Assembly: GCF_001465835.2 (NCBI RefSeq)
Contig: NZ_CP013661.2
Coordinates: 1,852,501-1,916,500, forward strand
Direction of reading: 5' to 3'
DNA length: 64,000 nucleotides
DNA from: Planococcus kocurii
GTDB taxonomy: Bacteria; Bacillota; Bacilli; Bacillales_A; Planococcaceae
In this document: one piece after another, positions 5,537 through 40,742 of the stretch
Numbering within the stretch: position 1 is the first letter of the stretch
How the letters are laid out: each line of letters starts with the position of its first letter
The notes under the pieces: model-generated
Seen by the model: the letters and a program-made list of their open reading frames with translations, nothing else
What the model was told of the DNA's origin: nothing
Database searches by the model: none
Program-made: the position numbers and the translations under genes

Positions 5537-5700
5537 GGGTGTAATTTAGTTCGTTAGATACATGTGAATTGGAATCTAAAAGAGTGATGTGTATGAACTA
5601 TAAATCGAAATTCGTAAATGTTGCTAAATAAACTTTTCGTTACGTATGTCGTATTAATTATTTGTCATCTGTGTAATTGGTCAGAAAAGAGGGGTTTGTA

Positions 5701-8175
5701 GTGGATTACTATTCACTTAGTGATTACATGTTATCAATTACAATTGCCAGTATAGCGGCCTTTATTGGTATTACAGTCATAAGAAAAGTAGATTTCACAA
5801 GAGAGAACAAAAACAAAGTACGCATTCTCTCAATTATTGTTGGAGCCATCATTTATTTTACTTATCTCGACTCTTCCTTTTTAGACATTGGTTCACCGAG
5901 TAGTTTACTAACGGGTATCTTTGTTTTTCTTTTCAGTTCTTTTGCGGTTTATACGGCAGTACTTGCGATATGTTCTAAAGAAATTTCCTTTCAAAAATTA
6001 TTGTTGGGCGCCATCATTTTTGCTTGTTGCATTAGTTTAGTTAACTTTATTGATATTCGAACGGAAATGGTCGAGAAGAATCTAAAAATGAATATTTTAT
6101 TATTTGTTAGTGCGAACATTTTGCTGTTAGGTAACACAATTGCCACTTTTCGATTTATACGGCAGTTGAGAAAAATTGAGAAAGTAAATATTAGCTGGAT
6201 CATTTACGGAAGTATTGCAGTTGGCATCGCATTCGCGAGCATTCGATTTACATTGTTTTCCAGCATTACGCTATTTTCTAATATAGATCTGTTTAATAAT
6301 CGTGACATTCCGATTTCTAATTGGCTTTACCTAAATGACACGCTATTGCCGTTAACGATCAACGTGTTTGGCTTAGTATTCTTAGAACTGTTCCCAGGTT
6401 TTGTTTCAGACTTTTATAGTGAAAAACAAAAAGAGCTGATAAATAAAAATAAGCATCAATACGAGACACTGTTTGAAAACCAAGCGATTGCGATTTTTAC
6501 GCTAGATGCGAGCGGGAAAATAACTAAAATTAATAAGGCGACTCAAGAAATGTTAGGTTTTCAACTAAAGGAGTTAAAAGAATTGTCTTCGTTTAGTGAA
6601 TTGATTCATGCTCAACGAAAAGATGAGTTTCTAAGTTTATCGGTAATAGCCTTTAATGGGGAATCACAAATGTTCGAAACGAAGTTACTCACTCGTATGA
6701 AAACGGAGGTCAATGTACAAATCACGTTAGTGCCTAATTTTTTAGAAGAAGAGTTAACACATATCACTATTTTTGCAAAAGACATTTCGGAAATTGTTGA
6801 GGCGAGAGAAAAAATTCATCATATGGCTTACCATGATCCACTCACTCTCTTACCAAATAGAAGGTTTTTTGAAGAAGAGTTAAGTCGTAGAATTACTGCT
6901 TCTAGCCCCGACGCACAGATGGCTGTGTGTTTCTTGGATTTGGATCGTTTTAAGTTGGTGAACGATATATTGGGTCATCAAGCAGGAGATCATTTGCTTC
7001 AGGTGTTGGCAAATCGATTTACCGCTATGAACAAACAAGACCTAGTCATTTCAAGGTTAGGCGGGGATGAGTTTACTTTTCTGTTTTCGGATATTTCATC
7101 ACATGAAAATTTCGAAAAACAGGTAGAAGATGTTTTAAGTCAAATACAAACGCCGTTTCTTCTCGAAAATCAGGAATTTTACATAACAGGAAGTATCGGA
7201 ATAGCTTTATATCCTCAGGATAGTTGCTTTGGAGAAGATTTGATGAAATTTGCGGATGCGGCGATGTATAGTGCTAAGGAAAAGGGTAAAAACATGTATG
7301 AGTTTTATCAAAATCACCTGAAAGAAATGAACCCTAAACAATTGTTGTTAGAAGCAGATATGAGAAAAGCAGTAAAAGAAAAGCAATTCGAGATATATTA
7401 TCAACCTCAGATAAATTTCGCGACTGGAAAAGTATTTGGCGTAGAAGCTTTATTGAGATGGAATCATCCAGAGGAAGGGTTGATCAGTCCAGAAGATTTT
7501 ATTGCAACAGCGGAAGAAAACCAGTTGATTATTGAATTGGGGCAGTGGGTGTTAGCAGAGTCTAGTAAACAGGTTAAAATTTGGCAAGAAGCAGGACACA
7601 AGAAACTGCACTTGAGTGTAAACGTCTCCATTAAACAATTTTTCCACCAGAACTTTATCAAGAATATTGAAGAGATAGTTAAAAACACGGGCTATGCTCT
7701 TGACATGCTCGACTTAGAAATAACGGAAAGTATGGCTATTCGAGATGTAGAATATGCCAAGGATATTTTTGATAAGATAAGAAATCTCGGCATTTCAATT
7801 AGCATGGATGACTTTGGGACAGGCTATAGTTCGTTAAATCACTTAAAAAACTTTTCAATCGATCGCTTGAAGATTGATGGTTCTCTTGTTCAAGACATTG
7901 CAACCGATGAAAAAGCAAGAACCATCATCAATACCATCATTGTCATGGCCAAAAACTTAAAGTTAGTTTCGCTTGCGGAGCGAGTGGAAACGGTAGAGCA
8001 ACAAGATTACTTAACCGCTATCGGGTGTAATGAAGTACAAGGGTATTTGTATGCCAAACCTTTAAATCGAAATGAAATGACGAAGTTTTTGAAAGAGAAC
8101 TTTAATGCTAACTTGCTAAAAAGCTCACAAATGGATTACGTTCCTCCTAATTATTTAGGGGTGACAGACAATTAA
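5701..8175 (+). CDS. Membrane PAS-GGDEF-EAL cyclic-di-GMP enzyme
   Basis: Bifunctional c-di-GMP turnover protein in the membrane. The N-terminal about 230 residues hold about seven hydrophobic segments (a sensor of MHYT/7TM-like size, but I do not see the MHYT motif). A PAS domain (LFENQAIAIFTLDASGKI...) covers about 250-370, GGDEF about 380-535 and EAL about 550-800. The catalytic GGDEF motif is intact (SRLGGDEF, about residue 454), as are EALLRW (about 581) and DDFGTGYSSL, so both cyclase and phosphodiesterase activity are possible. The RxxD inhibitory site is not seen at its usual place (NKQD instead). The start is GTG with GAGGGG at 5689-5694; a TTG at 5677 has no ribosome binding site. 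A c-di-GMP riboswitch lies 28 kb away at about 36.0 kb. Confidence 0.9.
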   Translation: MDYYSLSDYMLSITIASIAAFIGITVIRKVDFTRENKNKVRILSIIVGAIIYFTYLDSSFLDIGSPSSLLTGIFVFLFSSFAVYTAVLAICSKEISFQKLLLGAIIFACCISLVNFIDIRTEMVEKNLKMNILLFVSANILLLGNTIATFRFIRQLRKIEKVNISWIIYGSIAVGIAFASIRFTLFSSITLFSNIDLFNNRDIPISNWLYLNDTLLPLTINVFGLVFLELFPGFVSDFYSEKQKELINKNKHQYETLFENQAIAIFTLDASGKITKINKATQEMLGFQLKELKELSSFSELIHAQRKDEFLSLSVIAFNGESQMFETKLLTRMKTEVNVQITLVPNFLEEELTHITIFAKDISEIVEAREKIHHMAYHDPLTLLPNRRFFEEELSRRITASSPDAQMAVCFLDLDRFKLVNDILGHQAGDHLLQVLANRFTAMNKQDLVISRLGGDEFTFLFSDISSHENFEKQVEDVLSQIQTPFLLENQEFYITGSIGIALYPQDSCFGEDLMKFADAAMYSAKEKGKNMYEFYQNHLKEMNPKQLLLEADMRKAVKEKQFEIYYQPQINFATGKVFGVEALLRWNHPEEGLISPEDFIATAEENQLIIELGQWVLAESSKQVKIWQEAGHKKLHLSVNVSIKQFFHQNFIKNIEEIVKNTGYALDMLDLEITESMAIRDVEYAKDIFDKIRNLGISISMDDFGTGYSSLNHLKNFSIDRLKIDGSLVQDIATDEKARTIINTIIVMAKNLKLVSLAERVETVEQQDYLTAIGCNEVQGYLYAKPLNRNEMTKFLKENFNANLLKSSQMDYVPPNYLGVTDN

Positions 8176-35860: not shown

Positions 35861-35997
35861 TGTAGGTCACTCCTTAGTAATAAAAGATGTAGACAAATCC
35901 TACTGTTGATTATTGCCTTAAACTTCATAATTTGAAAGAGCTATTTAAAAAAGGTAGTAAAATCTCATAAATTAACATATAATAATGAAAATCTGAA

Positions 35998-36080
35998 AAA
36001 GGCAAACTCTATCGAAAGAGGAGGACGCAAAGCCATGAGCCTACCCGTTGAAAAACGCAAGGTCGTCTGGTTGCCAGGGT
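35998..36080 (+). ncRNA. Cyclic-di-GMP-I (GEMM) riboswitch
   Basis: Contains the conserved blocks GGCAAAC, a CGAAAG tetraloop arm, GGACGCAAAGCC and the closing GTCTGGTTGCC, in the right order and spacing for the GEMM-I aptamer. TATAAT at 35978-35983 is a possible -10. Downstream, CTCC at 36094-36097 can pair with the GGGAGG ribosome binding site (36109-36114), suggesting translational control of the following gene. Confidence 0.93.
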
Positions 36081-36125
36081 CTCGTTCTTTGAGCTCCGGC
36101 TTACGGAATGGGAGGATATCAGAAG

Positions 36126-36995
36126 ATGAAAAAAATAATAATGGCAGGTGTGTGTTTGTTAATTATGCTGACACAAAATGGAGTGAGTGCACAAGCAGCT
36201 GAGACGGAAGTCAAAGCTACCTGGTTATGGAATCCGTGGATGATTTATAGCGATGAAGCGGGAACCCTTGCTTTTTTAGACAGTAAGGATGTCAATAAAG
36301 TCTACGTGCAGATTGACGCGGATATTCCAGTGGATGTCTATAAAAGGTTTATTGAAAAAGCGGGACTATTAGGAATGACGATTTACGCATTGGACGGTGC
36401 TAGTGACTGGGTAGCACCAAAGGGCTTTACCAAGCAAGATCGGTTGATGAACTGGTTATCGTCTTATCAACAAGGTGCTTTGCAAGCTCAAAAATTTGCA
36501 GGTGTTCATTTGAATGTAGAGCCTTACCTTTATAGCGGTTGGAATACGAACCGAGCGGCCACTGTAAAATCCTATCAAGCCCTTTTGAGTAAAGCTAGTG
36601 CTAGTACAGCTGCAATGAACTTACCCCTTGAAGCAGATTTGCCTTTTTGGTTTGATGAAATCACTTATAAAAATATTTATGGCAAAGGGATACTTGCTGA
36701 GTGGGTGATTGCCAACACACATAGTGTGACCTTGATGGCTTATAGAGATTCTGCTGCTTTGATTACAGAACTTGTAAAGAACGAAGTGGCCTATGCAGAA
36801 AAATACGGCAAATCAGTAGTAGTCGGAGTTGAAACTGGTGAGACTGATGAAGGCGACAACATTTCTTTCTATGAAGAGGGCGAAACTTTCATGGAAGGTG
36901 AATTAGCTGCAGTAACTGCACACTATGCAGGGATAACTGGTTTTGGCGGCGTCGCGATTCACCACGTAGATAGCTGGAAAACGATGACACCCTAA
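36126..36995 (+). CDS. Secreted protein under c-di-GMP riboswitch control, TIM-barrel-like
   Basis: 289-residue exported protein with a clear signal peptide (MKKIIMAGVCLLIMLTQNGV, cleavage near AQAAE). The mature part has alternating beta/alpha patterns and blocks such as KVYVQIDADI, GVHLNVEPY and VTLMAYRDS, and a FGGVAIHHVDSW C-terminus. This resembles glycosidase TIM barrels with acidic residues at strand ends (NVEPY, GVETGE), but I do not recognise a named family. The ATG at 36126 follows GGGAGG by 11 bases. Regulation by c-di-GMP suggests a role in matrix, adhesion or motility transition (inference). Confidence 0.85.
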   Translation: MKKIIMAGVCLLIMLTQNGVSAQAAETEVKATWLWNPWMIYSDEAGTLAFLDSKDVNKVYVQIDADIPVDVYKRFIEKAGLLGMTIYALDGASDWVAPKGFTKQDRLMNWLSSYQQGALQAQKFAGVHLNVEPYLYSGWNTNRAATVKSYQALLSKASASTAAMNLPLEADLPFWFDEITYKNIYGKGILAEWVIANTHSVTLMAYRDSAALITELVKNEVAYAEKYGKSVVVGVETGETDEGDNISFYEEGETFMEGELAAVTAHYAGITGFGGVAIHHVDSWKTMTP

Positions 36996-37043
36996 AAAAA
37001 CAGCAAGGTTGAGCCATGCCGGCCAACCTCGCTGTTTTTTTTT
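36994..37043 (+). terminator. Terminator of the riboswitch-controlled gene
   Basis: AAACAGCAAGGTTG / CAACCTCGCTGTTT stem (one mismatch) with T9. Confidence 0.9.
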
Positions 37044-37102: not shown

Positions 37103-40100
37103 TCACTGAGTGTTGCCAAAAGTTTCTTGAAGAATGTAATACGATTGCTTCAAGCGTTCTTTGGATTGTGGCAGTCCCCATGTGTCCCATGAATACTGGG
37201 CTGCTTGAGTTGTAGTAAAGGTTTCAGTTGCTTTACCATTATCATCCGTTAAACTAGCAGCGACATCTATTCCTTCAATTGTTCTCGAAGCCTCAATGCC
37301 GTCTTGTTGAAGATCCCCTGTAAATTCTCGTTTTGCGGGATCTTTAGCATTCAGCAACATCCAAGGAATTCGGATTTCCATGATGCCTGTTTTTTCATCG
37401 TAGTAATAATCGTTCAAAGAATCATAGTTTTCATGCTCCGGATTGGCAATACCAAATCGGAAAACACCGGTTTCATAAGAAGAAAATGGCAGTGTTTCTC
37501 CAGTATCGGGACGCACAAATTCTTTGTTCAATGCGAGTCGAATCGGATGGAAAGTCGATTCAATATTTTCTTCTGCAGGAATCATCTTTAAACGGTTGTG
37601 ATAATCATAATAGAAGCTGTCGTAATCGCCTGCAACTTGCATTTGTGCTTGTTTTAAATCGTTCATCTTCAACTGAAAATCTGCGAGAAATTCTGTTTTT
37701 CCCAACGCATCAACTGCAATGCCTTGGTCTTCACGAATACTAAAGTACAAATTGAAATCCTGTTCAGTCCACCAGGTTTTATCGGTAGGATCGAATTGGG
37801 CTTTGATGTAAACGTAGCGCTCATCTGAATCCATGGTCAAGGTTCTGAGGGCACCGTTGTCTTTTTTGTATAGCTTTTGCCCATCTTGCCAATCATCTTC
37901 ACCATCGACTTTCACTTTATGACGATCAAAGCTCAACAATCCGAATTGCTGCTCATTTGTTTGAGCATTGGACCAAAATGGCCGTTCGTTTGGATTGTCA
38001 TACTCCATCGTATTCCACGTACGCTTAAACCACTCATCTTGCCATGTGAAAACCATACCGCCCATCAGTCCTTCTTCAAGGATATCCTCATACATATGGC
38101 TGACGATTTCGCCTTGCTGTTGTTCAGAGATAAACCCTTGGTTCCAACCGAACGGATTTTCATGAGTCATGCCGCGAGAAGAAGGAATACCGAACTCGGC
38201 GATGACAATTGGCATATCGTGAGAATCGTTCAAATCCTTCAAGTAGCCGGCGTAGTTATTGAATTCCCCGCGGTGGTCTACGTATTCAGTGTATCGTTCT
38301 TCTAAATTCAAGAAATCTGGATAGTACGGGTAAACATGATAAGAAGCGAACATGCCAACTGTATCCGTGATGCCTTTGGTTTTAATGTGATTTGGATCGA
38401 CAGTTGCCATATCTTCTTGTTCACTTGGCTCTGCTGGTTGGTCCACATTATCTGTCGTTACCCAGTTAGTAAAACTCAAAGGACGCATACTTTGGTAGGT
38501 ATCTAGTTCGTACGATGCTAACAAGTCCAGCTGCTGTGCCAACCAATTTTCCATCGGGTTGGCCTCTTCTGTGTATACATGCGTACCTTGAAAATCACCA
38601 AGCTCAGGATAATCAAGTTCCATTTGTTGAACCGTAAACGGATACCAATCATCCAACCAATAACGTAAGAGGAGATGTCAGTTTTGTAGGTACCATATGC
38701 ATGGCCAGGTTCTTGTTCGACAACAGCATCACCGTGAATAACGTCTACTATTTTCTGAACCTCATTTTGGAAACGCTCAGTAATCTCAGGAGTAAAGGCG
38801 TCGAGTGTTTCAACTAGTGGCTCTTCATCAATCCAGACGCCGTGGTACAGGTAAAGTGGCTGTTTAGCACTTGCATTATAAGCAGCAAATGCTTCATAGA
38901 AAGCAGGCGGGTGAAGCGTATACACACGAATCGCATTGGCATTCATCTCACCGATTGCTTTAAACCAGCGGTCGTATTCATCACGCGAGATTGCGGCTTC
39001 TCCAGGAAACGTTCCGGGCTTAGCCATGCCCATATTAACGCCTTTAATCGTAAATGGCTGCCATTCGCCATCTTCATACACTTCGAATGTCTGTCCGTTT
39101 ACACGGGAAGGATAAGAAATACCTTCTTCCTTAGCAACTTCTTTAACTGCTGTAACTTGTGATTCTTTGTCTTCTGCATTTGCTAAAATAGCTTCCATCA
39201 TTGGTACATAGGTCTTCCAATAAAAACTCTTTTCAGCATCTAACGATTCCATGGAAAGGAATGAGCGCATTTTTGCAAAACCAGAATAACGGTAAAAGTT
39301 TGGAACATCGTCAATATCGACAAAATCACCTGCAAAATAGTATAGATCTGCACCGTATTTAGACTGGTGGAATACAGCTGGAAAGCTCTGTGGAATTCCT
39401 GCTTTTTCTAGCTTTTCACTACCTGTAGCTTGCAGGTCCCACTGATAATCTGCTAAGACATCCGTTCCTTCAGTGGCTTCATTAATATCAAACCAATAAC
39501 CAAAAGAAGGGCTATCCGTTAAGTTGAATTGAGCGGTGCCTTGTTCAGTAAAGGTAAGATGAAGACCGTCAGAACCGATTTCACCTGCTTCTTCAGAAAG
39601 AACTACAATTTCGCCGGTATCGTCATTAACCAATATAAATCCAGCACCTTTAAAATGCCACTTGGCCTCATTTTTCTCGTAGTTATCAATAATCCATTGA
39701 GGGATTTCACTGTCAGAAGAGTCAAGATCGACAAAGTAACGACCACTCCAGCCACTCCACTCCAAGCCAAGAAATTTGTTTATGTCTGTTGCGACTTCTT
39801 TAGGCGTTGGAGAAGCAAATGTATTAAACTCCATTACCAAATCAGTGCCTTCAGCTTGAACTTGTTGCTTAATCGTGTTCCACTCAGCCATACTCAGTCC
39901 GCCGGTAATCATGGATGAACTGCCAGGCTTTTTCTCGGTCGTTTGCCATGGTAAATTTTCTTCGTAAACTCCGTAGGAATCTGCAAGATAGATCAGGTCA
40001 GTTCCAGACAAGTCTCCGGGTAAATCACGAGTAGTGTAGCTTTCTTCTTTTTCATTAGGGACGAAGCCATAATAATCTGTGTCGGCCAGATAAGCTTCTC

Positions 40101-40290
40101 CAGATTCACTTACGTAACGTTGATGATTTAATAGCCAAGTCAGGCCTTTATGCTCCCGGTAGCTTTCAGTAGGAACCGTTTTATCAATGATTGCAATAGT
40201 GACTGTTTTTTCATCTTTAAAAAACCATATGATAATAGGGAGTGCCAACAAAATAATGACTCCGAATAAGTATAGAAATGTCTTTTTCAT
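37103..40290 (-). pseudogene. Large membrane-anchored glycosidase-like protein, broken by one frameshift
   Basis: Two overlapping minus-strand frames (40290-38518 and 38656-37103) join into one protein of about 1060 residues. The first ends ...TDISSYVIGW and the second continues DDWYPFTVQQMELDYPELGDF. A single missing base near 38656 explains the shift. N-terminal membrane anchor (FLYLFGVIILLALPIIIWFF). The central region resembles GH2/GH5-type TIM barrels (FTIKGVNMGMAKPGTFPG, WFKAIGEMNANAIRVYTLHPP, and the possible catalytic Glu in MPIVIAEFGIPSSRG). It could be a true pseudogene, a phase-variable state or an assembly error. It is convergent with the c-di-GMP-controlled secreted gene, hinting at a shared exopolysaccharide theme. 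Confidence 0.8.
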
Positions 40291-40742
40291 ACATACCACT
40301 CTTCTCTATTTACAAAATATAACTCACAAGTCATTATAGCTTAAAAGTCACTATAAATAGAAAGAAATTACCTGATTTTTTAAAGAGCCAAATTTTATCA
40401 CAAGAAAATTGGGACACTGCTTGAGAATGTATCAATGACGTAAGAAGGCGAATGATCTAGCCATTCGGACGTAGAAAGACGCTGACGAAAGAGTCTGCAA
40501 TAAAGGTTCTACACACTATCTTTATATGGAGTCGTACCGAGTAATCGCATATCTATCACTACTATGTCGACTTTTCGAATAACGTGTTTGAGTAATTGGT
40601 AGTTGGAACTCTCGAAATTTTTACTATGCTGCTTATCTAAATAAATATTCCGATCAGTGCTTCCAATTTGACGCGTATGCAATCAAATTTGCGATGGTGC
40701 ATAATTCATCTCAGTAAACGATTCTTTCCTCTTATTCTAACT

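Follow-up and report, generated by a model that had tools for sequence, protein, structure and literature searches.

Riboswitches of class c-di-GMP-I (GEMM-I, RF01051) are the closest described relatives of the RNA in this study. Excerpts of the literature report that the Vc2 aptamer contacts its ligand through residues G20, A47 and C92, and that the class-I switches Vc1 and Bc2 are ON switches (PMC4744006, PMC11218506). In C. difficile, transcription is blocked when c-di-GMP binds the class-I switch located before flgB (excerpt of PMC8470499), and in B. methanolicus two single genes whose function is unknown are preceded by c-di-GMP riboswitches (excerpt of PMC4342826). Among the Bacillales, an exopolysaccharide system of B. 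cereus is accompanied by PelA_H (BCE_5582), a small secreted hydrolase; deletion of PelA_H raises biofilm, and the added protein dissolves biofilm (excerpt of PMC7112168). In this study, we believe, with a probability of about 0.55, that a c-di-GMP-I riboswitch acts as a translational OFF switch on a secreted, remotely GH18-like glycosidase, which would act on the N-acetylhexosamine exopolysaccharide of a GT2/HEAT/response-regulator system and trim the matrix when the cells are motile.

The DNA analysed, here called the window, is a 64 kb stretch (G000:C2:1852501-1916500) of a 3.49 Mb genome assembly whose closest named relatives are Planococcus/Planomicrobium. When the whole window was searched, RF01051 was the sole Rfam family above its gathering score (E 6.1e-12; model positions 1-87 of 87). 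The original prediction had called the aptamer a clear match, and the full-length hit of 71.1 bits against a cut-off of 35 bears this out; the predicted start at 35998 falls 7 nt inside the Rfam match, whereas the ORF end at 36995 was placed correctly. The Vc2 contact residues were carried over by model position, a transfer of our own, and G36001, A36029 and C36074 are the predicted ligand contacts. With its full-length aptamer, contact residues, GAAA tetraloop and place ahead of a surface/matrix-type gene, the RNA is like other c-di-GMP-I riboswitches, and by its sequence it is one of them, with ligand binding predicted. It differs from them in its translational platform, whose anti-sequester is made from the ligand-contact strand. 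A TATAAT was seen by eye at 35978-35983, 7 nt 5' of the aptamer; the consensus scan for promoters gave none on the + strand.

Table 1. Features of the riboswitch locus and of associated loci; positions are those of the window unless a locus or genome prefix is given.
Feature	Position	Strand	Detail
c-di-GMP-I riboswitch aptamer	35991..36078	+	Rfam RF01051, 71.1 bits
Anti-sequester hairpin	36073..36100	+	36073-36083 (aptamer 3' strand and next bases) with 36091-36100; uses C36074
SD-sequestering hairpin	36080..36113	+	36080-36094 with 36099-36113; pairs 4/6 SD bases
Shine-Dalgarno (SD) GGGAGG	36110..36115	+	sequence
Gene for secreted, remotely GH18-like TIM-barrel protein, 289 aa	36126..36995	+	candidate catalytic D130/E132, Y206
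Intrinsic-terminator-like hairpin and U tail after gene	36996..37043	+	fold -24.4 kcal/mol
Convergent neighbour, membrane-anchored glycosidase-like gene of same exopolysaccharide system	37103..40299	-	two overlapping frames
PAS-GGDEF-EAL protein, 832 aa (c-di-GMP turnover)	5677..8175	+	Pfam; GGDEF and EAL motifs
Second c-di-GMP-I riboswitch of window genome	L001:1501-1587	-	RF01051, 73.9 bits
Exopolysaccharide-type operon: Hpt-receiver-GGDEF, HEAT protein, GT2, receiver	L123:7530-11965 (G000:C2:2052529-2056964)		
1026-aa fusion, barrel domain N-terminal, second glycosidase family C-terminal	L115:7915-10992		end of exopolysaccharide operon

The pairing of aptamer and gene is nearly fixed among close relatives. 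The aptamer stands directly upstream of the gene in 50 of 51 related loci from named Bacillales genomes (46-84% identity, all Rfam-scanned; 19/20, 20/20 and 11/11 by batch), a proportion that describes close relatives rather than the whole family, as the search behind these loci finds close relatives only. The genera include Planococcus, Planomicrobium, Domibacillus, Neobacillus, Robertmurraya, Niallia, Peribacillus, Metabacillus, Sutcliffiella, Rossellomorea, Salipaludibacillus, Caldalkalibacillus, Lysinibacillus, Alkalicoccus and Chryseomicrobium. The sole exception, L044, is one of two P. chinensis copies, and the other copy (L054) has the aptamer; these two genes, one without and one with the riboswitch, form a natural pair for tests of regulation. 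Within the genus of the window genome, where 8 of 30 loci (L003-L032) were scanned, six had the aptamer, and L017 and L018 were without it, L018 being the same P. chinensis copy as L044. Among 20 scanned distant loci (out of 25, L084-L108), ten had the aptamer and the other ten had no riboswitch.

Judged by the aligned leaders, the expression platform consists of two mutually exclusive, conserved and covarying hairpins, one predicted to hide the SD and one to free it. We aligned 51 leaders, including that of the window, and the platform design was constant across them. Pair counts and energies refer to the clean set A3 of 41 leaders (40 distinct), from which ten leaders with insertions or another register in the platform are absent (L038, L040, L045, L051, L064, L067, L068, L076, L079 and L083). 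Over twelve counted pairs, 95.6% of cells of the sequestering hairpin were paired (slid controls 31-54%), and five pairs carried double changes, which was reached by 11 of 500 shuffles. For the anti-sequester, 93.3% of cells were paired over 40 distinct leaders (slid controls 17-57%); columns 14-24 were UA in 18 leaders and CG in 12, and columns 8-28 were AU in 21, UA in 5 and unpaired in 12 of 40, the window included. Two measures of the anti-sequester were not above shuffles, namely pairs with double changes (172/500) and pair types (295/500). Because columns 14-24 covary and yet mostly keep pairing in the other hairpin through G-U, the alignment suggests that both structures are under selection. 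The mean unpaired probability of the SD was 0.91 with the anti-sequester enforced versus 0.30 with the aptamer closing pairs enforced, and the SD was more open under the anti-sequester in 40 of 41 leaders, the exception being L058. The platform is of the translational type that had been foreseen. The element originally named as anti-SD, CTCC at 36094-36097, was rejected: it is complementary to the SD region in just 15 of 41 leaders, the loop of the conserved hairpin takes in three of its four bases, and the conserved arm that hides the SD is 36080-36088.

Because the anti-sequester takes the predicted ligand contact C36074, c-di-GMP binding and formation of the SD-freeing hairpin are mutually exclusive, whereas the SD-hiding hairpin is compatible with the closed, bound-form aptamer. 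From this we infer that the RNA is probably a translational OFF switch, in which c-di-GMP binding would favour the SD-hiding hairpin. When the full leader was folded, P1 plus the sequester had the lower energy in 40 of 41 cases, by a mean of 8.0 kcal/mol relative to the anti-sequester. Since the sequestered state is more stable even without ligand, the ON state would have to be kinetic and arise by co-transcriptional folding. In transcripts ending before the 3' arm, the anti-sequester was favoured in 27 of 41 leaders; in the shortened window transcript it was not favoured (-23.7 against -25.5). The energies by themselves do not settle the direction. The only other RF01051 match in the genome lies before flgB-flgC-fliE-like genes (names by eye) and is accompanied by a terminator-like hairpin; if the window switch is OFF, its gene would group with the motile state, like flagella.

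The start of the gene is ATG 36126 behind the SD, and the program-made ORF begins at 36108. The gene is probably a one-gene (monocistronic) unit, because a terminator-like hairpin follows it directly; the consensus scan, in which loops are limited to 3-8, missed this hairpin. The product had been predicted to be exported, and an N-terminal signal sequence ending near AQA/AE was recognised by eye. In the Pfam search of the protein nothing was above the cut-off (best E 0.063), GH18 (PF00704) and GH97 gave no match at E up to 10, and GH153 was not among the matches listed; NCBIfam gave no match and the best value in PHROGs was 0.1. The family is therefore unrecognised, as had been said, in Pfam, NCBIfam and PHROGs, but there is one solved sequence relative, 10yv_A ('Putative GH97 from Cellulomonas fimi'), which matches residues 118-287 at E 7.4e-12. 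The two proteins have the DVEP motif in common and differ in that the depositors assigned GH97, whereas the window protein shows no GH97 domain; the label itself looks doubtful. Our search of open-licence papers found none on the 10yv entry.

The AlphaFold2 model (52 sequences; pLDDT 86.7, pTM 0.83) is a (beta/alpha)8 fold with eight main strands in beta/alpha order and a small hairpin, and conserved carboxylates stand at the strand ends of the predicted barrel; both the TIM-barrel-like fold and the acid residues at strand ends had been proposed from the sequence. With an E limit of 0.001, Foldseek returned 84 PDB chains, with 4wiw, a 'putative chitinase', at the top (8.2e-7). By VIA-align, Cwp19 reached Z 18.5 (rmsd 3.6, 241 aligned) and the C-terminal domain of PgaB (GH153) Z 17.4; many chitinases were near Z 16-17, and GH5-, GH1- and GH20-type enzymes near 16. 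Cwp19 and the PgaB domain, both bacterial surface-polymer enzymes, are the best structural matches (Z 16.5-18.5), but their identity is 8-14% in the structural alignments and there is no sequence-family match. So common a barrel, as modelled here, would by itself show no function.

D130, E132, P133, R207 and H279 are nearly invariant over 98 family rows. In the 46 distant domain rows, which include repeats (L108/L110 and L100/L114 overlap) and amount to about 41 distinct ones, the counts were 46/46 for D130, 45/46 for E132, 46/46 for P133 and 45/45 for both R207 and H279; D171 was kept in 39 and D208 in 40, and E236 was Glu in 35 and Asn in 10. GH18 enzymes carry the signature DxxDxDxE on strand 4 and the motif M-x-Y on strand 6. 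In the window protein, strand 4 (F-A-G-V-H-L-D-V-E) fits the end of this signature and M-A-Y on strand 6 fits M-x-Y; the signature reads A125-x-x-H128-x-D130-x-E132, with only the last D and E retained. Compared by hhalign with SleL-type GH18, the 98-row alignment (72 rows after hhalign's own filter) gave a probability of 92.6 and E 4.7e-7 on one template with the motifs aligned, while reversed alignments, used as controls, stayed at or below 0.3; the narrower alignment of 52 sequences alone gave 28.7, and chitinase-type GH18 0.3. GHL10 (38%) and DUF4015 (2.3%) matched more weakly than SleL-type GH18 and were set aside. Loci for this profile test were chosen by completeness of match (16/30 for GH18, 7/20 for GHL10, 13/25 for DUF4015), and 15, 6 and 12 frames, respectively, were usable. 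Our first guess, clan GH-A (4/7) with E132/E236, was dropped in view of the Asn at position 236 in 10 of 45 distant rows and of the profile match to GH18.

These comparisons point to a remote relative of GH18 (clan GH-K) rather than a GH18 member: the barrel, the D-x-E ending strand 4, the strand 6 motif and the SleL-type profile match are alike, whereas the first two Asp are replaced by Ala and His, the Pfam match is missing and the activity is a predicted one. The GH18 mechanism is substrate-assisted, and if the mechanism here is that of GH18, the sugar cut would carry an N-acetyl group.

The protein is linked by gene order to an exopolysaccharide-type system. In the families f22 and f27, whose genomes we guess to be Brevibacillus-like, one to three copies of relatives end an operon with a HEAT protein, a GT2 synthase, a receiver protein, a nucleotide-sugar dehydrogenase, GlmS and a GlmU-like protein. 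The GT2 of this operon scored far below the cut-off of the PgaC/IcaA model; the dehydrogenase was above the cut-off of TIGR03026 and below those of the UDP-ManNAc/GlcNAc models. A homologous GT2 (42% over 408 aa) is present in the window genome, some 160 kb away from the riboswitch gene; it lies at C2:2052.5-2057.0 kb together with genes for HEAT, receiver and receiver-GGDEF proteins. A hybrid histidine kinase is convergent beside this operon (L123:4504-7359, +). HEAT/GT2/GGDEF genes follow the riboswitch gene in 20 of the 51 related loci (3 kb viewed), and other conserved neighbours within 3 kb on either side were small clade-wise clusters only.

Among 299 genomes of the class, 69 had the barrel (E cut-off 0.001) and 83 the GT2 (1e-60), with both in 67, the barrel only in 2, GT2 only in 16 and neither in 214. 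The GT2 was found in 67/69 barrel genomes versus 16/230 without the barrel (odds ratio 448, p 1.6e-48); the genomes are related, so p-values are inflated by shared ancestry, and the genus-level and same-genus counts are fairer. By genus, the GT2 was present in 19/21 with the barrel versus 13/97 without it (both/barrel only/GT2 only/neither 19/2/13/84), and the 35 other genomes of the same genus gave 28/1/2/4 (p 0.0014). A control GT2 of the window genome (1e-40) gave 29/40/47/183 against the barrel, an odds ratio of 2.8, and 10/11/20/77 when counted by genus. A second glycosidase-like family, of 744 and 1041 aa in G238, was scored at 1e-20 and gave 64/5/13/217 with the barrel and 75/8/2/214 with the GT2. 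In G187 and G306, the barrel and this second family match one 1026-aa frame, i.e. a fusion; in G306 (L115) it is preceded by genes of GT2, receiver, dehydrogenase, GlmS and GlmU type (names by first-residue likeness to L111). In the window, the second family is represented by the convergent neighbour of the riboswitch gene; this neighbour has a frame change near 38640 and no Pfam match. It is a pseudogene or an assembly error. Relatives have frames without stops, and their whole copies are often next to the GT2 synthase. The window also encodes the dual-domain PAS-GGDEF-EAL protein mentioned in the original prediction, with both motifs, and this protein could set the c-di-GMP level.

In the proposed OFF switch, the aptamer 3' strand with C36074 would pair with 36091-36100 at low c-di-GMP, the SD would be open, and the enzyme would be synthesised and exported. 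High c-di-GMP would keep the 3' strand in the aptamer; the long hairpin 36080-36113 would then form and hide the SD, and translation would stop. In the motile state, the enzyme would trim or dissolve the matrix. The protein is likely a secreted exopolysaccharide depolymerase made at low c-di-GMP, and PelA_H is a precedent in kind. PelA_H belongs to another synthase system, and a riboswitch is not mentioned in the text of PMC7112168.

Processing hydrolases of exopolysaccharide operons trim or release polymer during synthesis. If the present enzyme worked in this way, c-di-GMP would raise its expression and the RNA would be an ON switch, as Vc1 and Bc2 are. The synthase operon of the window genome encodes a GGDEF-domain (GGEEF) protein, and relatives lie inside synthase operons of other genomes, implying co-expression with synthesis, which would suit an ON switch; however, the closed aptamer is compatible with the SD-hiding hairpin, and the SD-freeing hairpin takes both C36074 and its neighbour, and we consider the ON direction unlikely.

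The other doubts concern the enzyme. A GH18 signature without its first two Asp and the Asn at position 236 in 10/45 distant rows would fit a barrel that is non-catalytic or acts differently, as a polysaccharide-binding protein, lyase or transglycosylase, but the near invariance of D130, E132, P133, R207 and H279 makes this quite improbable. Cwp19 of C. difficile, the top structural match, acts in the cell wall. A peptidoglycan hydrolase for motility or autolysis would also agree with the remote relation to SleL-type GH18, for which the title of entry 4s3k gives a spore cortex role. This is very improbable in our view: no cell-wall-binding domain was found in the protein by Pfam or NCBIfam, the structural matches after Cwp19 follow within about 1 Z, and co-occurrence and operon membership tie the family strongly to an exopolysaccharide-type synthase. 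The product had been called a matrix or cell-wall enzyme, and of these two the matrix is retained as the likely role, the cell wall being less likely from the genome context. The original prediction contained neither the probable OFF direction nor the remote GH18 relationship nor the tie to one exopolysaccharide system.

The riboswitch class is known. In open-licence papers, a search of which is no proof of absence, we found nothing naming the protein family, the riboswitch target or the exopolysaccharide system, nor the near-fixed riboswitch pairing of close relatives or the synthase link; an earlier listing may already include the aptamer-gene pairing, unnamed, through the B. methanolicus genes. 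More tentatively than for the switch itself, and at somewhat less than even odds, we speculate that the Bacillales have an exopolysaccharide system not described so far, made up of a GT2 synthase, a HEAT protein, receiver/GGDEF proteins, a supply of amino-sugar nucleotides and a membrane glycosidase. It would possess a secreted depolymerase belonging to a new GH18-related family, and a c-di-GMP OFF riboswitch devoted to this enzyme would act as a dispersal switch in a single RNA, maintained as a unit in more than ten genera while the gene neighbourhoods change. On this proposal, a nameless secreted protein family would gain a testable function, and biofilm-dispersal enzymes may be a by-product. 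It would also draw attention to a Gram-positive matrix polysaccharide that has been little studied, and offer a compact natural case in which a second messenger controls matrix degradation directly at the RNA level.
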